Part shown: piece by piece, positions 7,639 to 39,662 of the stretch
Numbering within the stretch: the first letter of the stretch is position 1
Layout of the letters: each line of letters begins with the position of its first letter
Assembly: GCA_025060475.1 (NCBI GenBank)
Contig: JANXBZ010000014.1
Coordinates: 1 to 39,662 of the forward strand
From: Dictyoglomus sp.
GTDB lineage: Bacteria; Dictyoglomota; Dictyoglomia; Dictyoglomales; Dictyoglomaceae
DNA: 39,662 bases
Reading direction: 5' to 3'
The notes under the pieces: generated by a model
What the model saw: the letters and a program-made list of their open reading frames with translations, nothing else
What the model was told of the DNA's origin: nothing
Databases searched by the model: none
Made by a program: the position numbers and the translations under genes

Positions 7639-8295
7639 ATGTTATTTGGAAATTTACAAGAAGTAGAGGTTATAAGAAGGGAAAAAAGATTTAGACTACA
7701 TGTCTTATGCGAGGGTAGAGAAGAACTTGTTTATCTTCCAAATCCTGGAAGGCTTGAAGGTATCATCTTCCCTGGAGCAAAGGTTTTTGTAGAAAATAAG
7801 ATGAATGAAAAAAGAAAAACCAAATGGGAAGCTGTATTAGGTCTTGAAAATAACATTTATGTTTCCCTTAATGCAGGATTAGCTAACAAGATATTTTATG
7901 AGAATCTTAGCTTTTTTCCAGTAAAAGTAAAGGATTTAAAGAGAGAATTTGTTTTTGGAAAAAGTAGATTTGATTTTTTAATAAACAATAGAATCCTAGT
8001 TGAAGTAAAATCGGTAACTTTAGTAAAAGACAATATTGGTTTATTTCCTGATGCTCCCACGAGAAGGGGATCAAAACATATGGAAGAAATGGCAGGGTGG
8101 AGTTTTGAAAAGTGGATTGTCTTTGTAGTTCAAAGAAAGGATGCAAAACTAGTCATGCCTCATAAGAATATGGATAAGGATTTTTTTAATAGTATTAATC
8201 TCCTGAAGGAGAGAGGAGGAACTTTTTTTGCTTTTTATTGTGATGTAAGTCCCAGGGGAATATTTTTTGGAGATTTTATAGATGTCAAAATATAA
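7639..8295 (+). CDS. sfsA: SfsA family nuclease
   Basis: A 218-residue SfsA protein. The N-terminal OB-like part (1-85) has the family hallmark YLPNPGRL. The C-terminal PD-(D/E)XK nuclease-like part has Asp112 in SRFDFLI and Glu122-Val-Lys124 in LVEVKS, followed by the signature GLFPDAPTRRGSKHMEEM. Escherichia coli SfsA was first described as a sugar-fermentation stimulator; the fold and motifs indicate a nuclease, with an uncertain cellular role. The gene sits one base after nadE and overlaps the DNA glycosylase gene by 14 bases. Pairing with a base-excision enzyme fits a role in DNA metabolism. Confidence 0.93.
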   Translation: MLFGNLQEVEVIRREKRFRLHVLCEGREELVYLPNPGRLEGIIFPGAKVFVENKMNEKRKTKWEAVLGLENNIYVSLNAGLANKIFYENLSFFPVKVKDLKREFVFGKSRFDFLINNRILVEVKSVTLVKDNIGLFPDAPTRRGSKHMEEMAGWSFEKWIVFVVQRKDAKLVMPHKNMDKDFFNSINLLKERGGTFFAFYCDVSPRGIFFGDFIDVKI

Positions 8296-8917
8296 AAATT
8301 TGGTAGAAAGATTAAGAGAAATTGAAGAAGAAGCAAGAAATTTAGTAGCTGAGAGAATAAATGAATTTAAAAATCTTGGACTATATGGGACTGAGTTGGA
8401 TTTATTTTCTGAATTATCCTTTTGTGTGTTAACTGCTAATTGGTCTGCTCATGGAGGAATAAAGGCTCAGAATTTAATTGGAAAAAATAATTTTAGTCAA
8501 TTACCCTTAGAAGATTTAATTAAAGAATTAGAAAAAGTAGGACATAGATATGCAAGAAAAAGAGGAGAGTATATATTTGAAAACAGAAAACTTATTGGAA
8601 AGTTAAAAGGTATTTTAGATCTTCCTTCAAAAATTGCTAGAAAATTACTAGTGGAATCTGCAAAAGGAATAGGATGGAAGGAAGCAAGTCATTTTCTGCG
8701 AAATACTGGTAAATTTGACTTAGCGATACTGGATAAGCATATCTTAAGAATTTTGTATGCTGAAAAAATAATAGAAGAAATTCCCAAAAGTTGGACTGAG
8801 AAAAAATATTTATATATTGAAAATTTCTTTTTTGAACTTTCTCAAGAATTTGGAAAAACTCCAGGAGAGACAGATCTCTATATATGGTATTTAATTAAAG
8901 GAAAGGTTGAGAAATAA
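8282..8917 (+). CDS. ogg: 8-oxoguanine DNA glycosylase/AP lyase, Ogg2 type
   Basis: A 211-residue bifunctional N-glycosylase/DNA lyase of the Ogg2 family, best known from archaea and thermophilic bacteria. It removes 8-oxoguanine and cleaves the abasic site. The helix-hairpin-helix and catalytic region reads ESAKGIGWKEASHFLRNTG, then KFDLAILDKHILRIL. Lys133 is the Schiff-base lysine and Asp151 the helper aspartate, with the 18-residue spacing of the Methanocaldococcus enzyme (Lys129/Asp147). The ATG lies within the end of sfsA, so the two are translationally coupled. It is probably the last gene of the run that starts with the sigma factor. Confidence 0.9.
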   Translation: MSKYKNLVERLREIEEEARNLVAERINEFKNLGLYGTELDLFSELSFCVLTANWSAHGGIKAQNLIGKNNFSQLPLEDLIKELEKVGHRYARKRGEYIFENRKLIGKLKGILDLPSKIARKLLVESAKGIGWKEASHFLRNTGKFDLAILDKHILRILYAEKIIEEIPKSWTEKKYLYIENFFFELSQEFGKTPGETDLYIWYLIKGKVEK

Positions 8918-9020: not shown

Positions 9021-10235
9021 ATGAGAAATATATCTGTAGAAAAATTAAATTCTCTACCTGTAGAGGAACATGGTGTAGAGTTAGTAGAAAGAAAAGGTGT
9101 AGGACATCCTGACTCCATTTGTGATGCTATAATGGATCAGATTTCTGTAAATCTATCTCAGGAGTATATAAGAATAGCTGGAAATATTCTTCACCATAAC
9201 ATTGATAAAAGTCTTCTTGTTGCTGGAGAAGTAGAGAGGAAAATTGGTGTTGGAGGAAGAGTAATAAAACCCATGCTTTTAGTAATCGGAGATAGAGCAA
9301 CATCTGAAATAGATGGGATAAAGATCCCAGTGGAGGAAATTGCTATTGAAACTGCAAAGGATTGGATAAGAAAAAATCTAAGATTTGTTGATCCTGAAAA
9401 GCATATTAAGTTTCAAGTGGAATTAAAGCCTGGATCTCCAGAGCTTACAGATATATTTAGAAGAAGAAAAGGATTGCTTCCTGCTAATGATACTTCTGCT
9501 TCTGTTGGATATGCACCCCTTACTGCTACGGAAAGATTAATTATAGATCTTGAAAGATATTTAAATTCTTCCAAATTTAAAGCAATTCATCCTGAGGTAG
9601 GAGAAGATATAAAAATTATGGGCTTTAGGAAAAAAAGAGTTCTTCAACTTACCATTGCTCTCCCATTAATTGATAGATTTGTAGAGAGTGTTCAAGATTA
9701 TTTCAACAAAAAGGAAATAATAAAAGGAGAGATTGAAAAATTTGTTCAAGAGAGAAATCAGTCCTTTGAAAAAATAATTATTGATATTAACACTTTGGAT
9801 GATCCCGAAAGGGGATTAGATGGAATATATTTAAGTGTACTTGGAACTTCAGCAGAAGATGGAGATTCAGGGCAGGTAGGGAGAGGAAATAGAGTAAATG
9901 GAGTTATTGCTTTAAATCGCCCCATGGGAACAGAAGCAGCAGCAGGTAAGAATCCTGTAAGCCATGTCGGTAAAATATATAACATTCTTGCCCATAAATT
10001 AGCTAACGAAATTTATCAAAATATACCAGGCATAAAAGAAGTATATGTATGGTTGTGTAGCCAGATTGGAAAACCAATTGATCAGCCTATGATAGCTACC
10101 GCACAGTTAATATTGGATAATGGAGTTTCCATTTATGATGTGGCAAAACCTGTGGAGAATATAATAGACCAAGAGTTAGCAAATATAGGAGCTTTTTGTG
10201 AAGATCTTGCAAAGGGGAAGTATCCTGTATGGTAG
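9021..10235 (+). CDS. metK: S-adenosylmethionine synthetase, archaeal type
   Basis: A 404-residue methionine adenosyltransferase of the archaeal family, which is distant from ordinary bacterial MetK. It makes SAM from methionine and ATP. Family blocks seen are GVELVERKGVGHPDSICDAI (start), GDRATSEI, LPANDTSASVGYAPL, LDGIYLSVLGTSAEDGDSGQ, and GRGNRVNGVIALNRPMGTEAAAGKNPVSHVGKIYN split across the nucleotide site. AAGGAGG (9005-9011) precedes the ATG by nine bases. The 103-base gap upstream shows no SAM riboswitch that I can recognise. It overlaps the class I lysyl-tRNA synthetase gene by seven bases. Such genes in bacteria are thought to come from archaea by transfer. Confidence 0.95.
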   Translation: MRNISVEKLNSLPVEEHGVELVERKGVGHPDSICDAIMDQISVNLSQEYIRIAGNILHHNIDKSLLVAGEVERKIGVGGRVIKPMLLVIGDRATSEIDGIKIPVEEIAIETAKDWIRKNLRFVDPEKHIKFQVELKPGSPELTDIFRRRKGLLPANDTSASVGYAPLTATERLIIDLERYLNSSKFKAIHPEVGEDIKIMGFRKKRVLQLTIALPLIDRFVESVQDYFNKKEIIKGEIEKFVQERNQSFEKIIIDINTLDDPERGLDGIYLSVLGTSAEDGDSGQVGRGNRVNGVIALNRPMGTEAAAGKNPVSHVGKIYNILAHKLANEIYQNIPGIKEVYVWLCSQIGKPIDQPMIATAQLILDNGVSIYDVAKPVENIIDQELANIGAFCEDLAKGKYPVW

Positions 10236-11800
10236 AAAAGACTCCCCATTGGGCGGATTTAACAGCAGAGGAAATAATAAAAATTAAGGGAAAGAAAAAT
10301 GTTGTAGCAACAGGTATTACTCCTTCTGGTCCCATTCATTTAGGAAATTTGAGAGAAATTTTAACAGGAGACGCAATTGCTAGGGCATTAAAGGAACAAG
10401 GATCAGAAGTCAGATTTATCTATATTGCAGACTCCTTTGATCCCTTAAGAAAAGTATATCCATTTTTGCCCGAATCCTATATAGAACATGTAGGAAAACC
10501 AATTTCAGAGATTCCAGATCCTGAGGGATGTCATGAGAATTATGCAGAACATTTTTTAAATCCATTTTTAGATGCTATAAAAGAATTAGGAATAGAGGTA
10601 GAAGTTATAAAGATTCATGAAGAATATGAAAAGGGGACTTACACATCAATTATAGATATTACCTTAGAAAAAAATGAGAGAATTACAGAAATTCTTAACG
10701 AGATTGCAGGAAGGAATCTAGAAAAGGACTTTGTTCCCCTCCTTCCTAAGTGTGAAAAGTGTGGAAAGTTAACTACAACTAAGATTATTTCCTTTGATAT
10801 TAAAAAACATCAAGTAGAATATCTCTGTAAATGTGGACATCAGGGATTTGCAGACTATAGTAAAGGAGAAGCAAAACTTCCTTGGAGATTGGATTGGCCA
10901 GGAAGATGGAAAATTTTTGGAGTAACGGTAGAACCTTTTGGAAAAGACCATGCTACTGCTGGTGGTTCTTATGATACAGGAAAGGTTATTGTAGAGGAAA
11001 TTTTTAATTATCCTGCTCCTTATCCTTTTATCTATGAATGGATATATTTAAAAGGTAAAGGAGCCATGTCTAGTTCCAAAGGTATTGCTATTTCTATAAA
11101 TGATATCTTAAAAATTCTTCCTCCTTCTTGGGTGAGATATCTTATTTTAAGATACAAACCTGATAAGCATATAGATTTTGATCCTGTTAATGGTTATATT
11201 CTTCTTGCAGAGGATTATGAAAGATTGGAAAAAATTTATTTCGGTTTAGAAGGAACTCCTGAGGAAAGAAAAGAATTAGCAAGGGTTTTTGAGATATCTC
11301 AAGTAAAAGATATTCCTAAGGAGCCTGGTCCTCAAGTTCCTTTAAGGCATATTATTACTCTTGCTCAAATATCTTTGGGTAATGAAGAATTATTAAAGGA
11401 GATGCTAATAAGAAGTGGATATGAAAAGGAACTTAATAAATTTTCAGAGATTTTAAAAAGAGTAGATTATGTAAGGAATTGGCTTGAAAATTATGCACCT
11501 TCCCATGTGAAGTTCAAACTGCAAGAAGATCTTCCTCAGATTACTAAAACCTTCTTGCCAAAAGAAAAAGATTTTCTGAAGGCTTTAGCTGAAAAAATAA
11601 GGGATAAAAATTGGGAAGGAGAGGAACTTCAGAATTTTATCTATCAGCTTTCTCAGGAGTTTAATATACCAGGAAAAAGAGCTTTTCAGCTTATATATCT
11701 TTCCTTTCTTAATCAAGATTCTGGTCCAAGGGCAGGATATTTTTTAGTTTCTCTTCCAAAAGATTTTGTAATTAGAAGATTAGAAGAAGCTGGAAATTAA
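10229..11800 (+). CDS. lysS: Lysyl-tRNA synthetase, class I
   Basis: A 523-residue class I LysRS, the form found in most archaea and a few bacteria (for example Borrelia), unrelated to the usual class II enzyme. It charges tRNA-Lys. The Rossmann domain has the HIGH-like sequence IHLGN at 36-40 within TGITPSGPIHLGNLREIL. The KMSKS-like motif is MSSSK at 280-284. Cys175, Cys178, Cys200 and Cys202 form a zinc-ribbon insertion. The C-terminal half is the alpha-helical anticodon-binding cage. Its ATG lies inside the end of metK, so the two archaeal-type genes are translationally coupled. No class II LysRS is seen in the window. Confidence 0.95.
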   Translation: MVEKTPHWADLTAEEIIKIKGKKNVVATGITPSGPIHLGNLREILTGDAIARALKEQGSEVRFIYIADSFDPLRKVYPFLPESYIEHVGKPISEIPDPEGCHENYAEHFLNPFLDAIKELGIEVEVIKIHEEYEKGTYTSIIDITLEKNERITEILNEIAGRNLEKDFVPLLPKCEKCGKLTTTKIISFDIKKHQVEYLCKCGHQGFADYSKGEAKLPWRLDWPGRWKIFGVTVEPFGKDHATAGGSYDTGKVIVEEIFNYPAPYPFIYEWIYLKGKGAMSSSKGIAISINDILKILPPSWVRYLILRYKPDKHIDFDPVNGYILLAEDYERLEKIYFGLEGTPEERKELARVFEISQVKDIPKEPGPQVPLRHIITLAQISLGNEELLKEMLIRSGYEKELNKFSEILKRVDYVRNWLENYAPSHVKFKLQEDLPQITKTFLPKEKDFLKALAEKIRDKNWEGEELQNFIYQLSQEFNIPGKRAFQLIYLSFLNQDSGPRAGYFLVSLPKDFVIRRLEEAGN

Positions 11801-24634: not shown

Positions 24635-25033
24635 ATGCACGAATGGGCGCTCGCTGAGGCGATTGTAAATACCGCCATAAAAGAAGCTCAGAATAAAAAT
24701 CTGAGTAAGGTAGAATTTTTATCAATAAGAATAGGGGAAATTCAACAAATTGATCTAGAGATCTTTAAATTTGCTATCAAAGAGTTATCTAAAGATACAA
24801 TTCTTAAGGATGCAGAAATAAGATATGAAAACTATCCAGCTATTTTACTTTGTAATGTTTGTAGAAATGAATGGAGTTACACAGAAAGTTTTGAAAAATT
24901 AAATGATGAAGAAAAAGAAGCCATTCATTTCATTCCAGAAACAATTCATGTTTACATTTATTGTCCCAAATGTGGAAGTGTAGATTTTGAGATTAAAGAA
25001 GGAAGAGGGGTATGGATTGAGGAAATATTATGA
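24635..25033 (+). CDS. hypA: HypA, nickel chaperone for [NiFe] hydrogenase
   Basis: A 132-residue HypA. The N-terminal Met1-His2-Glu3 nickel site is intact (MHEWALAEAIV), which also fixes the start codon. The zinc domain uses Cys73-X2-Cys76 and Cys110-X2-Cys113. The 33 residues between the two pairs are longer than in Escherichia coli HypA and resemble the archaeal (Thermococcus) form. HypA delivers nickel to the hydrogenase large subunit together with a HypB nucleotidase. The stop overlaps the start of the MinD-like ATPase gene by four bases (ATGA), tying the two together. Confidence 0.93.
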   Translation: MHEWALAEAIVNTAIKEAQNKNLSKVEFLSIRIGEIQQIDLEIFKFAIKELSKDTILKDAEIRYENYPAILLCNVCRNEWSYTESFEKLNDEEKEAIHFIPETIHVYIYCPKCGSVDFEIKEGRGVWIEEIL

Positions 25034-25761
25034 AATTAATTGATCCAAGAGTTTATGCTATTGAGGGGAGAATTAAAGATATAAAAAGAATATGGGCAGT
25101 AAGTAGTGGGAAGGGAGGTGTGGGAAAGAGTACTTTATCCACTTTTATTTCTCTATTATTAAATAAAAGGGGTTATAAAGCAGGACTCTTAGATTTAGAT
25201 TTTTATGGCCCTTCTTCTCATTTAATATTGGGAGCTAATAATATAAAACCTATTGAGGATTATGGACTAAGACCTGCAGATATTGAGGGAATTAAATTTA
25301 TGTCTATTATATACTTCACTGAAAATAGACCCTTAGCAATGAGAGGAAAGGATATTTCTAACGTTCTTATAGAACTTCTAACTATTACCCGTTGGAATAA
25401 TCTAGATTTTTTAATCATTGATATGCCTCCGGGGATGGGTGAAATTCTTTTAGATATTATTCGCTATATATCAAATTTAGAATTTTTAGTTATTTCTAAC
25501 TCTTCAACAATATCCATGGAAACAGTAGAAAAATTAATAAAATTTTTGAATTCTCAAAATATTCCTATTTTAGGAGTTATTGAAAATATGAAATTTGTTC
25601 CCTCTGAGTATATTAAAAACAAATGTTACGAGCTTAATATTAAATATTTAGGAGAAATTTCCTTCTGTCCAGAAATAGAAAATTATTATGGAAATATTGA
25701 AAAGCTCTTAGATTTACGAATCTCTAAAGAGCTTAACAATATTCTTTCTTTTCTTATATGA
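25030..25761 (+). CDS. MinD/Mrp-type ATPase, probable ATPase-type HypB (HypBAT-like)
   Basis: A 243-residue ATPase of the MinD/Mrp (SIMIBI) class. The deviant Walker A is SSGKGGVGKST (25-35), with signature Lys28 and Lys33; Asp in LLDLDFYGPS and the IDMPPGMGE block complete the site. The CPXC motif of Mrp/Nbp35 iron-sulfur carriers is missing (ENMKFVPSEY stands at that place). The usual GTP-type HypB is not in the operon. In Thermococcus a MinD-like ATPase, HypBAT, replaces HypB and binds HypA. The four-base overlap with hypA here makes the same role likely: ATP-driven help in nickel transfer by HypA. It could still be an iron-sulfur assembly ATPase, but that is less likely. Confidence 0.8.
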   Translation: MKLIDPRVYAIEGRIKDIKRIWAVSSGKGGVGKSTLSTFISLLLNKRGYKAGLLDLDFYGPSSHLILGANNIKPIEDYGLRPADIEGIKFMSIIYFTENRPLAMRGKDISNVLIELLTITRWNNLDFLIIDMPPGMGEILLDIIRYISNLEFLVISNSSTISMETVEKLIKFLNSQNIPILGVIENMKFVPSEYIKNKCYELNIKYLGEISFCPEIENYYGNIEKLLDLRISKELNNILSFLI

Positions 25762-25788: not shown

Positions 25789-27468
25789 ATGGAGAAAATT
25801 AAAATTAAAGTAAATGGAAAAGAAGTTGAAGTTTCTCCCGGAAAAACAGTTCTTCAGGTTCTTAAGGAATTAGGTATACATGTTCCAGTACTTTGCTACT
25901 ATGAACCTTTAATGCCCCAAGGATCATGTAGAATATGTGTGGTTGAGGATAGAGGTGTGTTAAAGACAGCATGTACTACACCTGTTGAGCCTAATATGGA
26001 TATAAAGACTGATACTCCTAATGTTATAAATTCAAGAAAACTTGTTCTTCAACTCCTTTTTTCGGAAAGAAACCATTATTGTATGTATTGTGAGGTTACT
26101 GGAGAATGTGAGCTACAAGACCTAGGCTATGAATTTGGATTAGATCACTTTGAATTTCCAACCTTTGAGAGAAAATTCCCAGTAGATAACACTCATGATT
26201 TCATAATGATAGACCACAATCGTTGTGTTCTTTGTAGACGCTGTGTGAGAGTATGTTCTGAGGTTGCAGGACATTATGTTTTAGGAGAAATGGAAAGAGG
26301 AATTGATACTATGATAATTGCAGATATGAATTTACCATTAGGAAATTCGTCCTGTGTATCTTGTGGGCTTTGTGCTCAAGTATGTCCTACGGGAGCAATA
26401 ATCGATAAAAGATCATCTTATCTTGGGAGAGAAATTCAATCCGATATTATCTATTCAAATTGTGATCTTTGTGCAGTAGGATGTGGAGTTGAGATTTACA
26501 AGAAAAAAGGAGCTAATTTCATTGTAAAGATTTATGGAGATTGGAATTCTGAAATATCTAAGGGAATTCTTTGTAAAGTAGGTAGATATTTATCTCTTTT
26601 CAATAACAAAGAAAGAGCTGTAGGAATTAGAGTTAAGGAAGAATTTGGTTTCAGAAAAATTCATGAGGATAATTTAGTTTCCTTGATAAAATCTAAACTT
26701 AATAATGCTGTAGCATATGTAGATGGTTCTCTATTTAATGAAGAGCTTGAGCTTATAAAGGAGCTATTTAAGGGAAGAGTATACTCCTTATATCCAAATG
26801 ATTCTCCTATTCCTTCAAATATAAATATTGAAGATTTAGATAACAGTAATTTCTTTGTAATCATAGGAGTAGATTTAAATAGAGAATATGGTACCATTGG
26901 TTCCTTTGTAAAGAGAAATGTAATTGGAAAGAAAGCAAAACTTATGGTTATAGATAAAGAATTAAATAGTCTTGCTAAAATTGCTGATTATGTATTTAAT
27001 ATTAAAGATATTAACATAGCACTTGATATTTTGAATAAAGAAAAAGAGGTAACAATTATATATAAAAATCTAACAGAATCGGAAAGATCTCTTCTTTTAT
27101 CTCTTTCCAATGCTAAATTTCTGCACCTTCCTATGGAGACAAATTCTATTGGCCTTCAAAAGCTTGGAATAAAACATGAAAAAATATCTGCTGAGAATGT
27201 GTTTGTTTTTGGCAAAAACTTAGAAGGTATAAAGGATTTACCAATTAAAAATTCATTTATGTTGATATTCACCCCCTATGAAGATGAAGAATTACATAAA
27301 GGAGATGTTATTGTAGGAATTACTGATTGGTTCGAAAGAGAAGGAACTTTCTATAATTTAGAAGGAAGAAAAGTAAAGAAGGAAAAAGTTCTAAAACCTA
27401 CCTTTGATGTAATTGATCTAAAGGAATTTATTTCTTATATGTTGGGTAAAACTGAGAGAATATCTTAA
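25789..27468 (+). CDS. NuoG/HoxU-like iron-sulfur subunit of the hydrogenase
   Basis: A 559-residue electron-transfer subunit. Residues 1-78 are a [2Fe-2S] ferredoxin domain (Cys36, Cys47, Cys50, Cys62). His96/Cys98/Cys101/Cys107 in NHYCMYCEVTGECELQ bind a [4Fe-4S] cluster as in HoxU. Two [4Fe-4S] ferredoxin motifs follow (Cys146, 149, 152, 156 and Cys189, 192, 195, 199). Cys225, Cys228, Cys232 and Cys262 form a further cluster site of the molybdopterin-oxidoreductase type. Residues 270-559 resemble a degenerate NuoG molybdopterin domain, a part that true HoxU lacks. It carries electrons between hydrogenase and an acceptor. No NuoE/NuoF-like flavin subunit is in the operon. A ribosome binding site (AGAAGGTG) precedes the ATG. 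Confidence 0.88.
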   Translation: MEKIKIKVNGKEVEVSPGKTVLQVLKELGIHVPVLCYYEPLMPQGSCRICVVEDRGVLKTACTTPVEPNMDIKTDTPNVINSRKLVLQLLFSERNHYCMYCEVTGECELQDLGYEFGLDHFEFPTFERKFPVDNTHDFIMIDHNRCVLCRRCVRVCSEVAGHYVLGEMERGIDTMIIADMNLPLGNSSCVSCGLCAQVCPTGAIIDKRSSYLGREIQSDIIYSNCDLCAVGCGVEIYKKKGANFIVKIYGDWNSEISKGILCKVGRYLSLFNNKERAVGIRVKEEFGFRKIHEDNLVSLIKSKLNNAVAYVDGSLFNEELELIKELFKGRVYSLYPNDSPIPSNINIEDLDNSNFFVIIGVDLNREYGTIGSFVKRNVIGKKAKLMVIDKELNSLAKIADYVFNIKDINIALDILNKEKEVTIIYKNLTESERSLLLSLSNAKFLHLPMETNSIGLQKLGIKHEKISAENVFVFGKNLEGIKDLPIKNSFMLIFTPYEDEELHKGDVIVGITDWFEREGTFYNLEGRKVKKEKVLKPTFDVIDLKEFISYMLGKTERIS

Positions 27469-27482
27469 AAGAGGTGAAAATT

Positions 27483-28025
27483 ATGGGAAAAATTAAGGTT
27501 GCTTCTATATGGTGTGAAGGATGTTCTGGATGCCATATGTCCTTTCTTGATATGGACGAAAGATTAGTTGAACTTATAAATAAAGGTTTAGAGCTAAATG
27601 CAACACCCATAACTGATTTAAAAGTACCCGATGAGGGAACAGATATAGGTATTATTGAAGGAGCAGTAGCAACAGATCATCATGAAGAAGAAGTAAAAAT
27701 GATGAGAGAAAGATGTAAAATTATAGTAGCCCTAGGAGATTGTGCTGTTTTTGGTGGAATTCCTACTATGAGAAATTACTTCACTGTAGATGACCTTTTA
27801 AAGAGAGGATATCTTACTACTGAAAGCACCGTAGATGGTAAAATTCCAATTTCTGAAGAACTTGGAAAACATCTTCCAAAAACTAAAGCGGTAAACGAAG
27901 TTGTAAAGGTAGACTTTTATATTCCTGGATGTCCTCCTTCTGCAGATGCTATATATCATGTGTTAAGAGAAGTGTTAGAGGGAAGAATTCCTAAATTAGA
28001 AGGCGAACTTCTGAAGTATGAATAA
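27483..28025 (+). CDS. hoxY: [NiFe] hydrogenase small subunit, HoxY type
   Basis: A 180-residue small subunit of a cytoplasmic bidirectional (group 3-like) [NiFe] hydrogenase. It holds the proximal [4Fe-4S] cluster: Cys14 and Cys17 in CEGCSGCHMSFLDMDE, a Cys in LGDCAVFGGIPTMRN and one in PGCPPSADAIY. It lacks a Tat signal and the medial and distal cluster domains of uptake hydrogenases, so it is cytosolic. The ATG at 27483 is preferred because AGAGGTG sits seven bases before it; an in-frame GTG at 27474 is part of that site. It lies between the NuoG-like subunit and hoxH, and is translated with them. Confidence 0.93.
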   Translation: MGKIKVASIWCEGCSGCHMSFLDMDERLVELINKGLELNATPITDLKVPDEGTDIGIIEGAVATDHHEEEVKMMRERCKIIVALGDCAVFGGIPTMRNYFTVDDLLKRGYLTTESTVDGKIPISEELGKHLPKTKAVNEVVKVDFYIPGCPPSADAIYHVLREVLEGRIPKLEGELLKYE

Positions 28026-28036
28026 GAGGTGAGAAT

Positions 28037-29461
28037 ATGGAAAAGAAAATTACTATAAGTCCAATTACAAGAATAGAAGGACATGCAAGGGTTACCATTC
28101 ATTTAAAGGACGATGGAAAAGTTGAAAAAGCTTTCTTTCATGTGGATCAATTTAGAGGTTTTGAGAAGTTTTCAGAGGGAAGACATTTTTCTGAGATGCC
28201 TGTTATTACTCCAAGAATTTGTGGGATATGTCCCATAAGTCACCATTTGGCTTCTGCAAAGGCAACCGATGAAATTATTGGGATAGATATACCAAGGCCT
28301 GCGAAACTTTTAAGAGAATTGATTCATATGGGACAATTTATTCAGTCCCACTCAATGCACTTTTTTGAACTAGCTGGACCAGACTTTATCCTTGGTTGGG
28401 ATGCAGATCCCAGAATAAGAAATGTGGTAGGTCTTATACAGGAAAATCCTGAATTAGCCTTGAAAGCAGTAAGATTAAGAAAATTTGGTCAAAGAATCAT
28501 AGAACTTGTAGCAGGAAGAAGAATTCATCCTGTTTTTGCAGTACCTGGTGGTGTAAATTCTGCTCTTTCTCCTTCTGCAAGAGATGAAATATTAAAAGGT
28601 ATAGATGAGATGATAGGATACATAAAAGAAGGAATAAAATTAGCAGAAGATTTTATTGAAAAAAATAAAGAAGAATGTAATAAGTTTGCTTCCTTCCCTA
28701 CAGGATATCTTGGTCTTGTAAAAGAGGATGGTTCTTTGGAGTTTTACGATGGAAAAATAAGATTTATGGATAAAGAAGGTAACATAGTAAAAGAATTTAA
28801 GCCTCAGTATTATTTAAGATACATAGGGGAAAGGGTAGAGGATTGGACCTATCTAAAATTCCCATATTATAAGCCCTTGGGATTTCCAGAGGGAGTTTAC
28901 AGGGTAGGACCTCTTGCAAGATTAAACATAGCGGAAAAAATAAGTACTCCTATTGCAAATGAAGAATTCAAAAAATTTAAATCCATAAATAATGGAAAGC
29001 CTGTAGAAGGTTCTTTATATTACCACTATGCAAGGTTAATTGAAACAATTTATGCCTTAGAGAGAGCAAGAGAAATATTAGAAGATCCAGAGGTTATGAG
29101 TCAAGATGTGCTAAGACTTGGTGAGGTAACAAACGAAGAAGGAATAGGAGTAGTGGAAGCTCCAAGAGGAACCTTAATTCATCATTACTGGGTTGATGAA
29201 AGAGGAACTATTGAGAAAGTCAACTTAATAGTTTCTACAGGACATAATAATTGGGCTATGAGTAAAGCTGTAGAAGAAATTGCAAAAGCATATGTAGATG
29301 GTAATAATTTAAAAGAAGGTATGCTAAATCGTGTGGAAGGTGCTATCAGATGTTATGATCCATGTCTTTCTTGTTCTACTCATGCAATTGGTAAAATGCC
29401 TATTATCATAGAATTTTATGATAAAGATGGGAAATTGATTAATTTTATAAAAAGAGATTGA
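28037..29461 (+). CDS. hoxH: [NiFe] hydrogenase large subunit, HoxH type
   Basis: A 474-residue catalytic subunit. The L1 motif RICGICP gives Cys62 and Cys65, the L2 motif DPCLSCSTH gives Cys443 and Cys446; these four bind the Ni-Fe(CN)2CO site. The N-terminus ISPITRIEGHARVTI is diagnostic. After His449 a 25-residue tail (starting AIGKMP) remains, which a maturation protease should remove after nickel insertion. The HoxY/HoxH pair reversibly oxidises H2 or reduces protons in the cytosol. The stop overlaps the TTG start of the protease gene (TTGA). A good ribosome binding site (AAGAGGTG) lies before the ATG. Confidence 0.95.
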   Translation: MEKKITISPITRIEGHARVTIHLKDDGKVEKAFFHVDQFRGFEKFSEGRHFSEMPVITPRICGICPISHHLASAKATDEIIGIDIPRPAKLLRELIHMGQFIQSHSMHFFELAGPDFILGWDADPRIRNVVGLIQENPELALKAVRLRKFGQRIIELVAGRRIHPVFAVPGGVNSALSPSARDEILKGIDEMIGYIKEGIKLAEDFIEKNKEECNKFASFPTGYLGLVKEDGSLEFYDGKIRFMDKEGNIVKEFKPQYYLRYIGERVEDWTYLKFPYYKPLGFPEGVYRVGPLARLNIAEKISTPIANEEFKKFKSINNGKPVEGSLYYHYARLIETIYALERAREILEDPEVMSQDVLRLGEVTNEEGIGVVEAPRGTLIHHYWVDERGTIEKVNLIVSTGHNNWAMSKAVEEIAKAYVDGNNLKEGMLNRVEGAIRCYDPCLSCSTHAIGKMPIIIEFYDKDGKLINFIKRD

Positions 29462-29886
29462 AAAAAATACTCTTAGTAGGATTTGGTAATGAATATAGAA
29501 AAGATGATGGATTAGGAATAAAGCTCCTGGATCTTATAGAGGGTGAATTTGACAAGATTAAGATCCAGGAGCTTACTTTTGATATGGCGGAAATTATAAA
29601 AAACTATGATATTGTAATTTTTGTTGACGCTTCTTTAGAAGGAAAGGAAATTTCTTTTAGAAAAATCTCAGAAAAATGTACCTTTTCTCCTCTTACTCAT
29701 CACACTTCCTGCGAGGAACTCTTAATTTGGACTAAAGCTTTGTATGGAAAAACTCCCGAATTTTATTTGCTATCTATAAAAGGCTATGATTTTGATTTTG
29801 GAGAGGAGTTATCAGAAGAAGCAAAGAAAAATTTAGAAAAGGGTCTTAAGTTTTTAAAAAGATTTATTAAAGGATTAAATGAATAA
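29458..29886 (+). CDS. Hydrogenase maturation protease (HyaD/HoxW type)
   Basis: A 142-residue endopeptidase that removes the C-terminal tail of HoxH after nickel insertion. It has the family start LLVGFGNEYRKDDGLGI, with acidic nickel-sensing residues in the DDG block (Asp16/Asp17), VDA with Asp57, and His81/His82 before TSCEELL. The first residue block reads GNEYRKDDG rather than the more usual GN.L..DDG. Translation starts at TTG 29458, overlapping the hoxH stop by four bases. A perfect 16-base inverted repeat lies at codons 22-39. It overlaps hypF by eight bases. Confidence 0.9.
   Translation: MKKILLVGFGNEYRKDDGLGIKLLDLIEGEFDKIKIQELTFDMAEIIKNYDIVIFVDASLEGKEISFRKISEKCTFSPLTHHTSCEELLIWTKALYGKTPEFYLLSIKGYDFDFGEELSEEAKKNLEKGLKFLKRFIKGLNE
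29521..29574. repeat. Perfect 16-bp inverted repeat inside the protease gene
   Basis: AAGCTCCTGGATCTTA (29521-29536) is the exact reverse complement of TAAGATCCAGGAGCTT (29559-29574); the loop is 22 bases. The stem has six to seven G/C pairs and no mismatch. It lies wholly in coding sequence (residues 22-39 of the maturation protease). The 3' side continues ACTTTTGAT, a short T run, so partial transcription termination or RNA processing before hypF is possible. Confidence 0.9.
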
Positions 29887-32137
29887 AACTTATAGAATAA
29901 AAATCTACGGTATAGTGCAGGGAGTAGGTTTTAGACCTTTTATATATAAACTAGCAAAGGATCTGAATCTAAAGGGATATATTTTTAACTCAACAGGTTC
30001 TGTACATATAAAGCTACAAGGGGATGAAGAAATTATAGAATTGTTTATGCAAAAAATTCTTAGAGATCATCCACCTCTTTCCAAAATAGAAAAAATAGAA
30101 AAAGAAGAAATCCTTTCAGAAGAAAAATACGAAGATTTTGAAATAATAGAAAGTAGAGAAGAACAAGGTTTTAATTTTATCTCTCCTGATATAGCTATAT
30201 GCAATGATTGTCTTTATGAAATGTACAATCCAGAAGATAGAAGATACAAGTATCCTTTTATCAATTGTACAAATTGTGGACCAAGATACACTATTATAGA
30301 AGATCTTCCTTACGACAGAGAAAAAACCACCATGAAAATCTTTAAAATGTGTCAAGAATGTGATAAAGAATATCATGATCCCCTAACAAGAAGATTTCAT
30401 GCTCAACCCATAAGCTGTTATAATTGTGGTCCCTCTCTATGGATCTATGAAGAAAAGACCGAGGATCCTCAAAATATCTTTATAAAAATATCTGAATATT
30501 TAAGAGAAGGAAAAATTCTTGCTATTAAAGGTATTGGCGGATTCCATCTTGCCTGTGACGCTACAAATAATAACTCTGTGAAAACTTTAAGGCTTAGAAA
30601 AAAAAGACCATCAAAACCCTTTGCTCTCATGATGAGAGACTTAGATATGATAAAGAAATATTGCTATGTAAGGGAACAGGAAGAAAAAGTATTAATCTCT
30701 AAAGAAAGACCTATTGTATTACTTCTAATAAAGGATCTTGGAGATATTTCTCCCCTTGTGGCTCCAAGAAATGAATATCTAGGAGTTATGCTTCCTTATG
30801 CTCCTTATCATTATCTTATTTTTGACTATTTTAATAGACCCTTAGTAATGACTAGTGGAAATATTACTGACGAGCCTATAATCAAAGACAATGAAGAGGC
30901 AATAAAAAAGTTAAAAAATATTGCAGACATATTTATATTTCATAACCGAAATATAGCAAGAAGAATTGATGATAGTGTAGTATTTTTTGAAAAGGATGGA
31001 CTCCAAATAATAAGAAGAGCAAGAGGATATGCTCCTGATCCTATAAAAATACCTATCACTATAAAGCCCATTCTTGCCTTAGGAGGAGAATTAAAAAGCA
31101 CCTTTGCTCTCGGAAAAGAAAACTATGTATTTGTAAGTCCTCACATAGGAGACTTGAAGGATAAGGACACTCTTGAAGTATATGAAGAAACAATTAGAGA
31201 ATTTATAAGACTTTTTAGAATTGAACCTGAAATTCTTGTACATGATCTGCATCCTCAATATCTTTCTACCGACTTTGCAGAAAAATTTAAAAAATATTTA
31301 GAAGTAAAATCTATTCAGCATCATAAAGCCCATTTCTTCTCACTCATCTTAGATAGAGAAATAAAAGATGAAATTATCTGCTTTTCCTTTGATGGAACAG
31401 GATATGGAGAAGACGGAAAAATTTGGGGAGGAGAGGTCTTTATAGGAAATATAGAGGAAGTGAAAAGAATAGGTCACTTTAAATATTTTCCAATAGCAGG
31501 GGGAGATTATGCTATAGAAAATCCTCAGAAAATTGCTCTTTCTTATCTTTTAAAATACTTTCCTGAAGAAGTGGAAAAGATATTTCCCTATATAAATTCT
31601 TTTGAAATAGAAATTACCAAAAAAATGATAGAAAAAGAAGAGAATATATTTTACACATCTTCCTGTGGAAGAATTTTTGATCTTGTCTCTGCTTTACTCA
31701 AAGTAAGAGAACATATTGATTATGAAGGACAAGCAGCCATAGAACTTGAAATGCTTGCTATGAAAAGTAGAGAAACAAAGCACTATTCCTTTGAAATAAT
31801 TAAAGAAAAGGAAAAATTTGTCATTGATGTAAAACCAACTATTGCGCAAATTATTGAGGAATTAAGGATTACTGATAAAAAGGATATAGGTAAAAAATTC
31901 CACAATACCATATCTCAGATAATTTTGTCTCTTTCTGAAATTTTAAGAGAAGAGTTCAAAATAAATAAAATCGGGTTTTCAGGAGGAGTTTTCCAAAATC
32001 GATTATTACTAAGAACAGTTGTAACATTACTAGAAGAAAAGGGTTTCCAAATTTTTACTCATAAAAAGGTGCCAACAAATGATGCTGGAATATCTCTTGG
32101 TCAGGTTATTTTAGGAAGATTAATAGAAAATAATTAA
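29879..32137 (+). CDS. hypF: HypF carbamoyltransferase for hydrogenase cyanide ligands
   Basis: A 752-residue HypF. It uses carbamoyl phosphate and ATP to carbamoylate the C-terminal Cys of HypE on the way to the CN ligands of the Ni-Fe site. The domains in order are: acylphosphatase (5-90, GIVQGVGFRPFIY); two zinc fingers (Cys108/111/130/133 and Cys158/161/180/183); a YrdC-like domain (about 195-380, with KGIGGFHLACDA and LRLRKKRPSKPFALM); and a Kae1-like domain (about 395-750, with HHKAHFFS, SFDGTGYGEDG and GFSGGVFQNRLL). It is the last gene of the hydrogenase operon; hypC, hypD and hypE are not in the window. Confidence 0.96.
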   Translation: MNKTYRIKIYGIVQGVGFRPFIYKLAKDLNLKGYIFNSTGSVHIKLQGDEEIIELFMQKILRDHPPLSKIEKIEKEEILSEEKYEDFEIIESREEQGFNFISPDIAICNDCLYEMYNPEDRRYKYPFINCTNCGPRYTIIEDLPYDREKTTMKIFKMCQECDKEYHDPLTRRFHAQPISCYNCGPSLWIYEEKTEDPQNIFIKISEYLREGKILAIKGIGGFHLACDATNNNSVKTLRLRKKRPSKPFALMMRDLDMIKKYCYVREQEEKVLISKERPIVLLLIKDLGDISPLVAPRNEYLGVMLPYAPYHYLIFDYFNRPLVMTSGNITDEPIIKDNEEAIKKLKNIADIFIFHNRNIARRIDDSVVFFEKDGLQIIRRARGYAPDPIKIPITIKPILALGGELKSTFALGKENYVFVSPHIGDLKDKDTLEVYEETIREFIRLFRIEPEILVHDLHPQYLSTDFAEKFKKYLEVKSIQHHKAHFFSLILDREIKDEIICFSFDGTGYGEDGKIWGGEVFIGNIEEVKRIGHFKYFPIAGGDYAIENPQKIALSYLLKYFPEEVEKIFPYINSFEIEITKKMIEKEENIFYTSSCGRIFDLVSALLKVREHIDYEGQAAIELEMLAMKSRETKHYSFEIIKEKEKFVIDVKPTIAQIIEELRITDKKDIGKKFHNTISQIILSLSEILREEFKINKIGFSGGVFQNRLLLRTVVTLLEEKGFQIFTHKKVPTNDAGISLGQVILGRLIENN

Positions 32138-35068: not shown

Positions 35069-37636
35069 TTAATCTTCCTCTACATCAATTTCAAGTTGGG
35101 AAAAAGCTTCCTTTATATTTTTTTCATACTCATTTTGAGTTATTTTCCCTTGGGTTGCTTTTATTTCAATTTCTACCTTATTAAATTTTTCTCTTAAGAA
35201 TCTTATAACACCTATTATTCCTGATGTTTTTCCTTCGGGAATCTCAAACTTTAATTTTACACTTTCTCTATAATTTTGTTGATGTGAATTTGGTAACTTT
35301 TCAGCCTCTTCTGTTATTATTCTAGTTTCTTGAGACATTTTGATATCCTCTTTTTTTATTTCCAAAAATGTTTCTGATCTACCCTCAAGCTTAGTTTCTT
35401 TTATTAATTTTTCACAGATTTCTTTATTTATTAAAATCTCTTCTTCTTCAAAAGAAACTTCTGGAGTTTTTTCTTTTCCATAGTAACTTAGAATAATTTT
35501 ACCTTCGCGAAGTTCTCCAATTCCTAAAATTTCATTTTTAACTGCTTTTTTTATCCCGTCAATCAAGACTTCTTTACTAGCAAACCTTAATGCTCCTGGT
35601 GTTCTATAACTCGAATTTATTATCTGTTTAGTGAATACATAGTCATTATTACCTAAAAACTTTTCTTTTATGACCTTTGGGTCAATAGTTTCTAATATGT
35701 AACCATTACTTTTTAAAGTTTCGTATACCAGTATATCTAGTGTTCTTTTTTCTCCTACTGTGGGTATTCCTAAATCTTCTTTTTCATTCTTTCCAGGTAT
35801 CACTATATTTCTATAAGCTCTTCTAAGTTGATCCTCTAAGGATTCTTTCAAATTTCTTAAATTAATTTCTATCTCTCTTTTTTGCTCATTAGAAAGATTT
35901 AAGTTTTTATCATTTTTTATATACTCATAGGCTAAATAGTTTCTTATTGTATTTTTTAAAGCTAAACGTTCACTTTCAATGGGAATTAGTAAAAATAATG
36001 AGTTTACATTTACTCTTGGAATTTCACCTTTAAATTTAATTATTTTATTAATCAATTCTTCTTTTTCTTCCTTTAAGATTATGAGTTTAAACTCTTCGTT
36101 ATCAGGAATATTTTCAGATTTTTCTTCCCATACATATACTTTTAATTTTTCTGAACGAACATTCTTTTTTATTAATTCTTTTTCATATTCTTCTATCTCT
36201 TCCTCTCTTATATTCTCTGCTTTTAGAACTAAAATTCTATTTAGATTGGGTTGATTTGAAAAGAAATATTTGTCGTTTTGATACTGTAGATAAAATAATC
36301 TATTTTTGAGAAGATCTAAGGCTTCGTTTATTACACTTGAGGGATTATTCAAAGTAGTAGCGGAGCGTTTTATTTCTAATATCGTTGCTCCTTTTTCTCG
36401 ACCTCCTGAAAAGGAATACATAAATATAGAAGTTGCACTACGAGTACCTAATTTTAAACCTCTATAGGAGATACCTAGATCATCATCTACCCTTCTACTT
36501 CCTGAATCCTTTCTTGTTATATCTTGAGCTATTACGCTATTATACTCTTCTCCTATATATTTTACGAGTTCAAATCTAATATCTTCATTGGAAAGGTCAA
36601 AATCCGAAAGAGTAATATAAGGAATATTACTGTATTTGAGAGAAGACACAACCAAAGAAAGTAATCTTAAAACTCCTCTTGTTCGTTGGAAATTTGGAAA
36701 ACTTCCCCAACGATGATAAAGTACATCTATCACGTCGGGCATAAAAGGATAAGAATCTATAAATCTATCTCTATACTCTGTGGGTTCTAAACCTATAGGT
36801 AATATTTTTTCTTTTTCAGCATAATTTATAAACTTATCAACTATGTTTTTAACTTCTTCTTCATCTATGTCAATAAAAAGTCTTTTTCTTATAATCTTTG
36901 CTATTTCATGGTCTTGTACTGGAGTATATATTCTCTCTACTCTTCCTACTACTTTTTGAAGTTGAGAAAATAATCTTTCCGCTTCAGTATCATAGTGCTC
37001 TATAGTACTTGATGGTAAAGTCACCACAAGACACGCTTTTTCTAAGGTAGCTACAACTTCTGTAAGTTCTTGCATGAAAGCTATGGTTTGAGCAGATAAT
37101 GTGCTGTTTCCCACTTTTACTCCAGCGGATTTTGTAACATATTCCAAAACTTCATCCATAAGAATCAATAAAGGTTGATTTTTTTCCAGAATACTTCTTA
37201 TTTTTTCTTTTCCTGGGGAGATTTGTCCTGTCATTATCTCATTTCTCCCTGTAAGTTCTTTCTCCAAAAGTCCCCAAAGAGTTTCTTCTTTTGCATCTAA
37301 ATTAGTCCCTACTATTACTGCTAAATTTATCTTCCAATCTACCTTTGCTTTATGCATTAAGGCAATTAAAGAATGGGTTTTACCACCTCCAAAGGGAGTT
37401 TGGAGCTGAATAATAGAATCTCCTAATCTTCCTTCTATTCTTTTTTTGACAATATCTAATAAGTTTTTTAATCCTTCAGTAATATATGTCTTCCGAAAGA
37501 AAAGATCATAATTCTTGTATTCATCGATTCCCTCTCCTTTATAAGCATTCCAAAGATCTGCTGCGAAGACATCCATGGCAGATCTTCCCTCTAGGATGTC
37601 TCTATGAGGAATAGCTACTGTGTGAAAGGGTTTCAT
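35069..37636 (-). CDS. DUF499 family AAA+ ATPase (defence-associated)
   Basis: An 855-residue predicted ATPase of the DUF499 family. Walker A is TPFGGGKTH (80-88), Walker B is LLILMDE (Asp161/Glu162), and VVTLPSS at about 205 is a sensor-1-like strand. The following 600 residues are largely helical and charged, with a stretch of about 550-620 (LSNEQKREIEINLRNLKESLE) likely to form a coiled coil. The C-terminus carries a small alpha-beta domain (KLKFEIPEGKTSGIIGVIRFL). It lies 22 bases downstream of a DUF1156 DNA methyltransferase gene, in the same direction, with GGGGG as ribosome binding site. Such ATPase/methylase pairs occur in phage-defence islands. It probably acts with the methylase in self/non-self recognition; the mechanism is unknown. 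Confidence 0.88.
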   Translation of the reverse strand: MKPFHTVAIPHRDILEGRSAMDVFAADLWNAYKGEGIDEYKNYDLFFRKTYITEGLKNLLDIVKKRIEGRLGDSIIQLQTPFGGGKTHSLIALMHKAKVDWKINLAVIVGTNLDAKEETLWGLLEKELTGRNEIMTGQISPGKEKIRSILEKNQPLLILMDEVLEYVTKSAGVKVGNSTLSAQTIAFMQELTEVVATLEKACLVVTLPSSTIEHYDTEAERLFSQLQKVVGRVERIYTPVQDHEIAKIIRKRLFIDIDEEEVKNIVDKFINYAEKEKILPIGLEPTEYRDRFIDSYPFMPDVIDVLYHRWGSFPNFQRTRGVLRLLSLVVSSLKYSNIPYITLSDFDLSNEDIRFELVKYIGEEYNSVIAQDITRKDSGSRRVDDDLGISYRGLKLGTRSATSIFMYSFSGGREKGATILEIKRSATTLNNPSSVINEALDLLKNRLFYLQYQNDKYFFSNQPNLNRILVLKAENIREEEIEEYEKELIKKNVRSEKLKVYVWEEKSENIPDNEEFKLIILKEEKEELINKIIKFKGEIPRVNVNSLFLLIPIESERLALKNTIRNYLAYEYIKNDKNLNLSNEQKREIEINLRNLKESLEDQLRRAYRNIVIPGKNEKEDLGIPTVGEKRTLDILVYETLKSNGYILETIDPKVIKEKFLGNNDYVFTKQIINSSYRTPGALRFASKEVLIDGIKKAVKNEILGIGELREGKIILSYYGKEKTPEVSFEEEEILINKEICEKLIKETKLEGRSETFLEIKKEDIKMSQETRIITEEAEKLPNSHQQNYRESVKLKFEIPEGKTSGIIGVIRFLREKFNKVEIEIKATQGKITQNEYEKNIKEAFSQLEIDVEED

Positions 37637-37658
37637 CCTTAAATTCCCCCTTTAATAA

Positions 37659-39662
37659 TCATAGATTCATATCAATTTGTCTTATTTCTCCCATCAATTT
37701 ACTTCTTCCCACCAAGAATCCCTCAAGAAGTTTTTTCTCTTTACTCTCATTGGGAAGAGTCTCGGAAATTGCCTGTGCTACTCTATAAAAAATTTCGCTT
37801 TTATGATAACCCCTTGTTTTTAATCTGTCTATCATATCTTCCCTTCTTCCAAGCTCCCAAAGGCAAAGCACATGGTGTAGCACATCTATAAGCTCAAAGG
37901 ATTCTTCTAAATCTTCAATCTTTCTCTCATGAGGTCCAAGAACTCTTATAAATTCTTTTTCTTTTTTGATAAATCCTTTTTTATTGCTCCATTCTTTCTC
38001 AAGATCAACACCACAACTTACAGCAAGCTTTCTTGCCTCATCGAATTCTACTTTTGCCTCTCCATACTCCCAACGATATAGTATATAAAATCTTGTAAGG
38101 TCAGAAATTTCTGCAGAAAACCCATTATGTAAAATTCTTTTTATGGCATATTCTGTTACTATTTTTCTTATATCTTCTAAAAGTCTGTCCGCTCTTATTA
38201 TATTTCCACTATAGTCCATGACTTTTTCATACCTACCGAAAATTTCAATAGCAGATCCTATAGCGGATATGAAAAAGTCAGCACCAGATATTCCTTCCTC
38301 CCAAAGTCTATCAAGTTTATCATTAAGATATTTTTTCATCTCCTCTTTTACTTCATTATAAAAACCTGTTTCTTTTTTCTCTCTTTTTCTTGCAACTATA
38401 TAAATAGAGGATGCTAAAGCTGCAGATTCTCTTGCTCTTAATCTTTCTTTCATCTCTGTATTTATGGGCCAAGAAGCGGTAATTATAAGTCCAGAATCAA
38501 GGAGAGAGTTTATCAAAGTCTCCCATCCTGAGGTAGACTTATGAGCATATACAATTACTGCAATACCCTCTGGTTTTAATACCCTATGGATCTCTTGAAA
38601 AGCTTTTTTTAAATTTTCTTCAAAAAATTTCTTACCTGCTTCAAATCCTCCTTCGTTGTGAGAATATGCAACTATTTCTTGACTTTTGGGAGTAAGTGGA
38701 GTAGAAAATAATTCAGGATATAAATCTCCAATACTTCTTTTTAGCCATACATAGAAAAAGTCAGAAAGATAAGAGTAGGGAACATTGTCATAATATGGAG
38801 GATCAGTAAATACAGCATCAAAGAAATTATCGGGATAGGGAAGGGAAGTGGCGGAGAAGTGGGAAATATTTTCATAGTTATCTGATAATTCGTGTCTATT
38901 AAAACTTAAAGTATCTAATACTTTCAAAACACTATCGTTAATAGTTTTCCAATTATATCCCTTTTCTCCCAAAATATTTGTCTCTATATAGTCCCAATTC
39001 ATAGGTAATGCTTGTCTAGAAAATGTTGTGGAAACTTTCTCCCAAGAACCATCCCAGTGACATAAGGTAGAATTAGTATCAGGTATTCTACTTATTATAA
39101 ACCCCAAATAACTCACCACTGCCTTTGCATATTCTTTATCGTATCCTTTTTTTATCATCTCCTCATATGCTTTTCTTACTTTTTCTGTAAAGGTTATAAG
39201 AGCAAGCTTTTGCCTTGAGTTGAAAAGATCTCCCCATTTAAGCATTCCATATCTTTGGACCCTAAATCCAAGAGTTTCTTTAGGAGGTAATGGCTCATCT
39301 GGCACAGGATCCATGCCCCATTCTTCCATTAGTTTTTCTCTCTTTATTTTTAAGTATTCTTCTGCCTCTTTATAGGCTTTTAGATCTTCTTCTTTGGAGA
39401 TTCTATAATATTTTCCTTCTTTTTCAGGATAATGTAGAACTACTGCTACCATTCTTTGTCCTGATTTTCCCTGCTGGAATAATCTTCTTGTGGTATCATC
39501 ATCTATGGTGCTCCCACATGCAGGACATCTTACCACTGCCCTCGATACAGTACCTTCCTCGGGATTAAAATTTTGTGGCATTTTTTCATAACCAGTGCCC
39601 ACAATTTTAAACTTTATCTCCTTTCCATCTACATATGGATATAGAGAAATTTTCTTCTTATC
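37659..39662 (-). CDS. DUF1156-type adenine-specific DNA methyltransferase (5' end outside window)
   Basis: The frame is open to the right edge, giving the last 667 residues or so of the protein; the apparent GTG start near 39602 is internal. Visible parts: a zinc-ribbon half CPACGSTI, then LKWGDLFNSRQKLALITF, typical of DUF1156 proteins, and the catalytic motif TDPPYYDNVPYSYLSDFFYVWLKR (near 38800), the DPPY motif of N6-adenine methyltransferases, followed by HRVLKPEGIAVIVYAHKSTSGWE. The C-terminal 250 residues are helical and of unknown role. The N-terminal DUF1156 segment and probably the rest of the zinc ribbon lie beyond the window. It is upstream of, and cotranscribed with, the DUF499 ATPase gene. 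Confidence 0.88.
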   Translation of the reverse strand, partial: DKKKISLYPYVDGKEIKFKIVGTGYEKMPQNFNPEEGTVSRAVVRCPACGSTIDDDTTRRLFQQGKSGQRMVAVVLHYPEKEGKYYRISKEEDLKAYKEAEEYLKIKREKLMEEWGMDPVPDEPLPPKETLGFRVQRYGMLKWGDLFNSRQKLALITFTEKVRKAYEEMIKKGYDKEYAKAVVSYLGFIISRIPDTNSTLCHWDGSWEKVSTTFSRQALPMNWDYIETNILGEKGYNWKTINDSVLKVLDTLSFNRHELSDNYENISHFSATSLPYPDNFFDAVFTDPPYYDNVPYSYLSDFFYVWLKRSIGDLYPELFSTPLTPKSQEIVAYSHNEGGFEAGKKFFEENLKKAFQEIHRVLKPEGIAVIVYAHKSTSGWETLINSLLDSGLIITASWPINTEMKERLRARESAALASSIYIVARKREKKETGFYNEVKEEMKKYLNDKLDRLWEEGISGADFFISAIGSAIEIFGRYEKVMDYSGNIIRADRLLEDIRKIVTEYAIKRILHNGFSAEISDLTRFYILYRWEYGEAKVEFDEARKLAVSCGVDLEKEWSNKKGFIKKEKEFIRVLGPHERKIEDLEESFELIDVLHHVLCLWELGRREDMIDRLKTRGYHKSEIFYRVAQAISETLPNESKEKKLLEGFLVGRSKLMGEIRQIDMNL

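Follow-up and report, generated by a model that had tools for sequence, protein, structure and literature searches.

Organization of the locus

The window, the whole stretch of 39,662 nucleotides analysed here, comes from a heat-loving bacterium of the Dictyoglomaceae, whose genome assembly (1.72 Mb, 99.56% complete) is divided into 81 contigs. Seven genes on the plus strand form an operon in the order hypA, ATPase, HydA/HoxU-like subunit, small subunit, large subunit, protease and hypF. The hypA gene (24635..25033) encodes a nickel metallochaperone of 132 aa, assigned to the archaeal/Thermococcus type by a score above the NF003008 cut-off and by its PDB and fold matches. It overlaps by 4 bp (ATGA) the gene of a 243-aa ATPase (25030..25761, stop codon included), which is assigned as an ATPase-type HypB (mmHypB / HypB-AT) by its match to 3vx3/5aun, its fold and its position in the tree. 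Downstream are the genes of a HydA/HoxU/NuoG-like iron-sulfur subunit of 559 aa (25789..27468; top PDB match 7t2r_A, E = 1.7e-71), a [NiFe] hydrogenase small subunit of the HydS/HoxY/MvhG type of 183 aa (27474..28025; 7t2r_E, 1.8e-53), and a [NiFe] hydrogenase large subunit of 474 aa (28037..29461; 7t2r_D, 2.1e-179), which is the predicted client. A hydrogenase maturation protease (C-terminal peptidase; 29458..29886; above the TIGR00072 cut-off) and the carbamoyltransferase HypF (29879..32137; TIGR00143, 837 bits, above the cut-off) follow. The intergenic gaps downstream of the ATPase gene are, in order, 27, 5, 11, −4 and −8 bp. The genes hypC, hypD and hypE are located on a separate contig (L005, 15409-17674).

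Other genes in the window were also observed. At 9021-11800, the gene of an archaeal-type S-adenosylmethionine synthetase (NF003363, 684 bits, above the cut-off) overlaps that of a class I, archaeal-type lysyl-tRNA synthetase (TIGR00467, 585 bits, above the cut-off), giving two additional archaeal-type genes in a bacterial window. An Ogg-type N-glycosylase/DNA lyase (8282-8917; NF002305, 264 bits, above the cut-off) is directly ahead of the S-adenosylmethionine synthetase gene. On the minus strand, at 35069-39662, a large DUF499 protein adjoins a 647-aa DNA methyltransferase-like ORF. This region is a possible defence locus; the DUF499 protein scores 174 of 1200 bits against the anti-phage-associated DUF499 family, far under the cut-off.

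HypA and the ATPase

HypA passes the NCBIfam model NF003008 (PRK03824) with 193.8 bits against a cut-off of 125, and fails the general HypA model TIGR00100 with 70 bits against a cut-off of 88. Its sole PDB sequence match is HypA of Thermococcus kodakarensis (3a43/5aun, 1.1e-34), with which it aligns gap-free over residues 1-129 at 44% identity. The N-terminal M1-H2-E3, His98 and all four zinc cysteines are present. The zinc motif is C73xxC76-x33-C110xxC113, and the spacer between the two CxxC elements is 33 residues here versus 12-14 in ordinary bacterial HypA. Thus the MHE motif, His98 and the CxxC-x(~33)-CxxC arrangement, which define archaeal-type HypA (NF003008), are all found.

The top PDB sequence match of the ATPase is T. 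kodakarensis HypB (3vx3/5aun, E = 3.3e-68, 48% identity), and ApbC is far behind (1.5e-31). The deviant Walker A sequence GKGGVGKS is located at residue 27. The protein has just two cysteines (199 and 213), and no CxxC or CPxC motif occurs across the 243 residues. The preliminary description, in which hypA overlaps the gene of a MinD/Mrp-class ATPase lacking CPXC, is therefore correct on both points. The ATPase scores 174.9 bits against the Pfam NUBPL/ParA family PF10609, and its matches to the NCBIfam MrpORP/ApbC models are under the cut-off. AlphaFold models were built using the window and locus sequences only (mean pLDDT 84.8 and 90.1). In fold searches, HypA matched 5aun_A (TM 0.83) and the ATPase matched 5auo_B (TM 0.92), and in each case chains of the HypA-HypB complex were returned first.

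Because the best PDB sequence and fold matches of both proteins are chains of the T. kodakarensis HypA-HypB complex, the identity of the two genes can be assigned. The ATPase is nearer to T. kodakarensis HypB than to Mrp/ApbC, belongs to a clade of its own and adjoins hypA in a genome without GTPase HypB; these features, together with the deviant Walker A and the absence of CPxC, are those of an ATPase-type HypB. We conclude with high confidence that the two proteins are a nickel-insertion pair of the T. kodakarensis kind, in a bacterium that lacks the GTPase HypB. The gene label is thereby corrected, as generic models would call the ATPase Mrp/ParA.

Pairing of long-loop HypA with the ATPase

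In a set gathered partly via the ATPase and partly via HypA profiles, long-loop HypA is located beside a CxxC-less ATPase in 75 of 75 distinct sequences (74 paired by script, and L181 by overlapping ORFs). Such an ATPase is beside none of 25 bacterial HypA with short or intermediate spacers. As a control, 20 archaeal HypA loci scoring low against the profile were inspected: 12 adjoin GTPase HypB, one (L209) adjoins the ATPase instead, and the others are partnerless in the fetched stretch. Some of the archaeal HypA beside GTPase HypB have a zinc spacer of 30-36 residues (L206, L207, L210, L211 and L212), and those five may be intermediate between the two types of HypA. His at the aligned column 98 is found in 9/9 of the aligned archaeal HypA that adjoin GTPase HypB.

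As marks of ATPase pairing, the long zinc spacer alone and His98 alone were dropped, since either can occur in archaeal HypA linked to GTPase HypB. The longer archaeal zinc spacing noted in the preliminary description is present, but spacing by itself is not diagnostic of the partner. Long spacing and His98 are both general features of archaeal-type HypA, and the HxxP[EDG] loop accompanies the ATPase; this loop and an adjacent ATPase are the diagnostic combination. Pairwise distances of HypA and the ATPase are correlated (r = 0.83; permutation maximum 0.25), a value to which shared organismal ancestry alone contributes part. The two genes are co-inherited.

Phylogenetic analysis

The ATPase tree contains 62 rows, with Mrp as the outgroup. 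The clade of ATPase-type HypB, including the window ATPase, is split from Mrp/ApbC with support of 100/100. The sister of the window group (Dictyoglomales and the families f14, f71 and f90) is formed by Thermococcales together with DHVE2-like archaea (96/87). A second group consists of WOR-3, Cloacimonetes, other bacterial families and three archaea (100/98). The tree without the longest branches gives the same picture. According to the Mrp rooting, several archaeal lineages diverge ahead of every bacterium. For the set without the longest branches, topologies that place the bacteria next to Mrp, or unite all archaea in one clade, were rejected (AU p = 0.02 each). One single bacterial clade was not rejected, either in the full set (AU p = 0.095) or in the reduced one (0.069). 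The HypA tree, which is short and has little resolution, was rooted on short HypA and recovers the main groups of the ATPase tree.

Because the bacterial sequences branch within archaeal groups, archaea are the most likely source of the pair in bacteria. We take these results to mean that the pair arose in archaea and was transferred to bacteria at least once, and probably more often, in agreement with the earlier suggestion of a transferred module.

Alternative explanations

Two readings would deny the ATPase its role as the HypB of this organism. In one, a GTPase HypB is present but was missed, owing to an assembly gap or to divergence, and the ATPase is an accessory protein; the division of the genome into 81 contigs is in its favour. 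However, a TIGR00073 search of the whole window genome, 99.56% complete, gave no match, so the absence noted earlier for the operon extends to the genome. The same search recovers HypB over the cut-off in 4 of 14 named genomes. None of the seven Dictyoglomaceae genomes has a GTPase HypB, and two of them (G003 and G004) carry the locus on single, chromosome-sized contigs of 1,855,560 and 1,959,987 bp. No GTPase HypB over the cut-off was detected in any of the 45 ATPase-carrying genomes (18 + 27), and the few sub-threshold matches score 17-41 bits versus 207-303 bits for true HypB. In a sample of 145 bacterial genomes, HypA was found in 70, GTPase HypB in 49 and a hypA-adjacent ATPase in 12, and the 12 carriers and the 49 HypB genomes do not overlap. 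Seven of these 12 carriers are Dictyoglomaceae, and they are therefore not independent events. A missed GTPase HypB was rejected on the whole-genome searches, and its probability is very small. In the other reading, the ATPase is an iron-sulfur carrier of the Mrp/ApbC/NUBPL type, which feeds clusters to the HydA-like and small subunits, and its adjacency to hypA is incidental. The PF10609 match and the sub-cut-off MrpORP/ApbC matches fit this, as do the 19 cysteines of the HydA-like protein. The window genome also lacks a housekeeping Mrp of its own; the only other matches of the ATPase search there are MinD (L007) and ParA/Soj (L008). Thus the ATPase could have extra duties in this organism. 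Against a carrier, most Mrp outgroup sequences have CxxC, usually CPxC, and the window ATPase has none; forcing the Dictyoglomales sequences into Mrp was rejected (AU p = 0.002), so that the ATPase falls outside the bacterial Mrp/ApbC proteins. Moreover, relatives of the ATPase adjoin hypA without a nearby HydA-like gene (L158, L163 and L164), and the related genomes G001-G006 hold a separate Mrp too. On the missing CxxC and the AU test the carrier was rejected, and we regard it as improbable.

The pair itself could be ancestral to bacteria and archaea, as an old vertical trait that was lost in most bacteria. The tests leave room for this in that the single bacterial clade was not rejected. 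On the other hand, archaeal lineages come first in the Mrp-rooted tree and the opposing topologies were rejected, the HypA tree concurs when short HypA is used as its root, and the distribution in bacteria is patchy, with long HypA (> 130 bits) in 17 of 386 genomes. Vertical ancestry therefore seems unlikely, although less so than either a missed HypB or a carrier, and transfer from archaea is the reading retained here.

Nine of the sampled bacterial genomes (G018, G031, G044, G073, G078, G093, G099, G103 and G134) have HypA, but neither GTPase HypB nor a hypA-adjacent ATPase of this clade. Either HypA has no partner in them or its partner is of a third kind, and the NTPase partner may be dispensable in places.

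Predicted client hydrogenase

The large subunit is the only PF00374 gene found in the genome, and thus its only [NiFe] hydrogenase. It has the CGIC and DPCLSC ligand motifs and a C-terminal extension past DPCLSCSTH. In PDB searches it scores 600 bits against 7t2r_D, versus 428 for Mvh and 416 for HoxH. The HydA-like, small and large subunits are all closest to the electron-bifurcating NiFe-HydABCSL of Acetomicrobium mobile (PDB 7t2r), which is their closest solved relative. HydSL of that enzyme resembles HoxHY (PMC8880783). Neither HoxE nor HoxF was found within the window, and the enzyme is not assigned to HoxEFUYH (group 3d). In contrast to the A. mobile enzyme, the window operon has neither HydB nor HydC; four NuoF-like genes are located elsewhere in the genome. 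The client had been called a HoxYH-type enzyme; it is a relative of HoxYH, closest to the bifurcating NiFe-HydABCSL, and not Hox proper.

Distribution in bacteria

Each of the seven sampled Dictyoglomaceae genomes carries the pair of HypA and the ATPase. The pair also occurs in several further families of bacteria, WOR-3 and Cloacimonadota records among them. This is not an isolated case: the module belongs to an entire bacterial family and to other lineages of bacteria. The operon order is identical in G173 (L157) and G369 (L160). In G033 (L164) the pair is beside an operon resembling a membrane group-4-type hydrogenase, and in G281 (L159) it is beside an Mvh-like hydrogenase operon. As these neighbours differ in class, the pair is not confined to a single type of hydrogenase. 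In G076 (L161, 6101-8851), hypA, the ATPase gene and a HydA-like gene are followed by a gap and then by CRISPR-cas-like genes, with no hydrogenase subunits following; this operon is possibly truncated.

On balance we favour, with some reserve, a wider interpretation, in which the complete archaeal module took the place of GTPase HypB independently in several lineages of bacteria, moved as a pair and serves different hydrogenase classes. The lineages would be the Dictyoglomaceae with their operon-sharing relatives, and the second cluster, which includes WOR-3 and Cloacimonadota. The classes would be the HydSL type in the window, the Mvh-like type in G281 and the membrane group-4-like type in G033. 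If this is true, HypA and its NTPase are an interchangeable cassette, independent of the remaining Hyp machinery. The fixation of the pair in a cultured bacterial family and its scattered occurrence elsewhere suggest that such a cassette can be exchanged for another at the nickel-loading step.

Reviews present the ATPase-type HypB as an archaeal peculiarity (PMC7055735, PMC12134894). The kind of system is already known; bacterial hosts are not described in the literature searched, in which the Thermococcus work was covered through reviews, and an earlier mention is possible.

Proposed mechanism

In Thermococcus, the ATP-bound ATPase and HypA form a heterotetramer, in which a nanomolar nickel site forms with MHE and His98. 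ATP hydrolysis is set off by nickel, and the large subunit receives its nickel from Ni-HypA ahead of C-terminal cleavage (PMC7055735, PMC12134894). The M1-H2-E3 motif, His98, the four zinc cysteines and the P-loop of the ATPase are conserved in the window, which also encodes a large subunit extended at its C terminus and the maturation protease that goes with it. By homology, a dimer of the ATP-bound ATPase would bind two HypA molecules. The binding would reshape HypA, so that the MHE site and His98 come together as a high-affinity nickel site. Nickel binding would then lead to ATP hydrolysis and the release of Ni-HypA, which would dock on the large subunit (28037-29461) in its immature form, after HypCDEF has supplied Fe(CN)2CO. 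The nickel would be handed to the large subunit, and the protease (29458-29886) would cut off the C-terminal extension. For the window organism, the formation of the complex, its coupling to ATP and the transfer of nickel are presumed from the archaeal pair. Most likely, the known archaeal system would work in bacteria by the same mechanism, which is an extension of its range. Dictyoglomus is a bacterial test case for the effect of ATP versus GTP in nickel delivery.

Comparison with known systems

CooC, the nickel ATPase of CO dehydrogenase, is likewise a MinD-class ATPase for a nickel enzyme (PMC9164220). However, it is absent among the best sequence and fold matches listed for the window ATPase, and the neighbourhood here is a hydrogenase operon. 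The Mrp/ApbC/NUBPL carriers share the P-loop superfamily and the deviant Walker A with the window ATPase, which differs from them in the lack of CPxC, in its separate clade and in its constant hypA neighbour. The usual bacterial pair of GTPase HypB and short HypA has in common with the window pair the predicted NTP-driven delivery of nickel to the large subunit. Its NTPase is a G3E GTPase, whereas that of the window is an Mrp/MinD ATPase; its HypA has a spacer of 12-14 residues instead of 33, and most of these HypA are without the His98 loop.

The T. kodakarensis HypA-HypB pair (3VX3, 5AUN-5AUQ) differs from the window pair in its setting, as the window host is bacterial and its operon includes a HydASL-type hydrogenase and hypF. 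The window ATPase group is sister to the Thermococcales clade, not within it. The order of hypA and the ATPase gene with the 4-bp overlap, seen in most Thermococcus loci fetched, is the same, and so are the fold, the nickel-site and zinc-site residues, and the absence of both GTPase HypB and CPxC; the identity is 48% for the ATPase and 44% for HypA.
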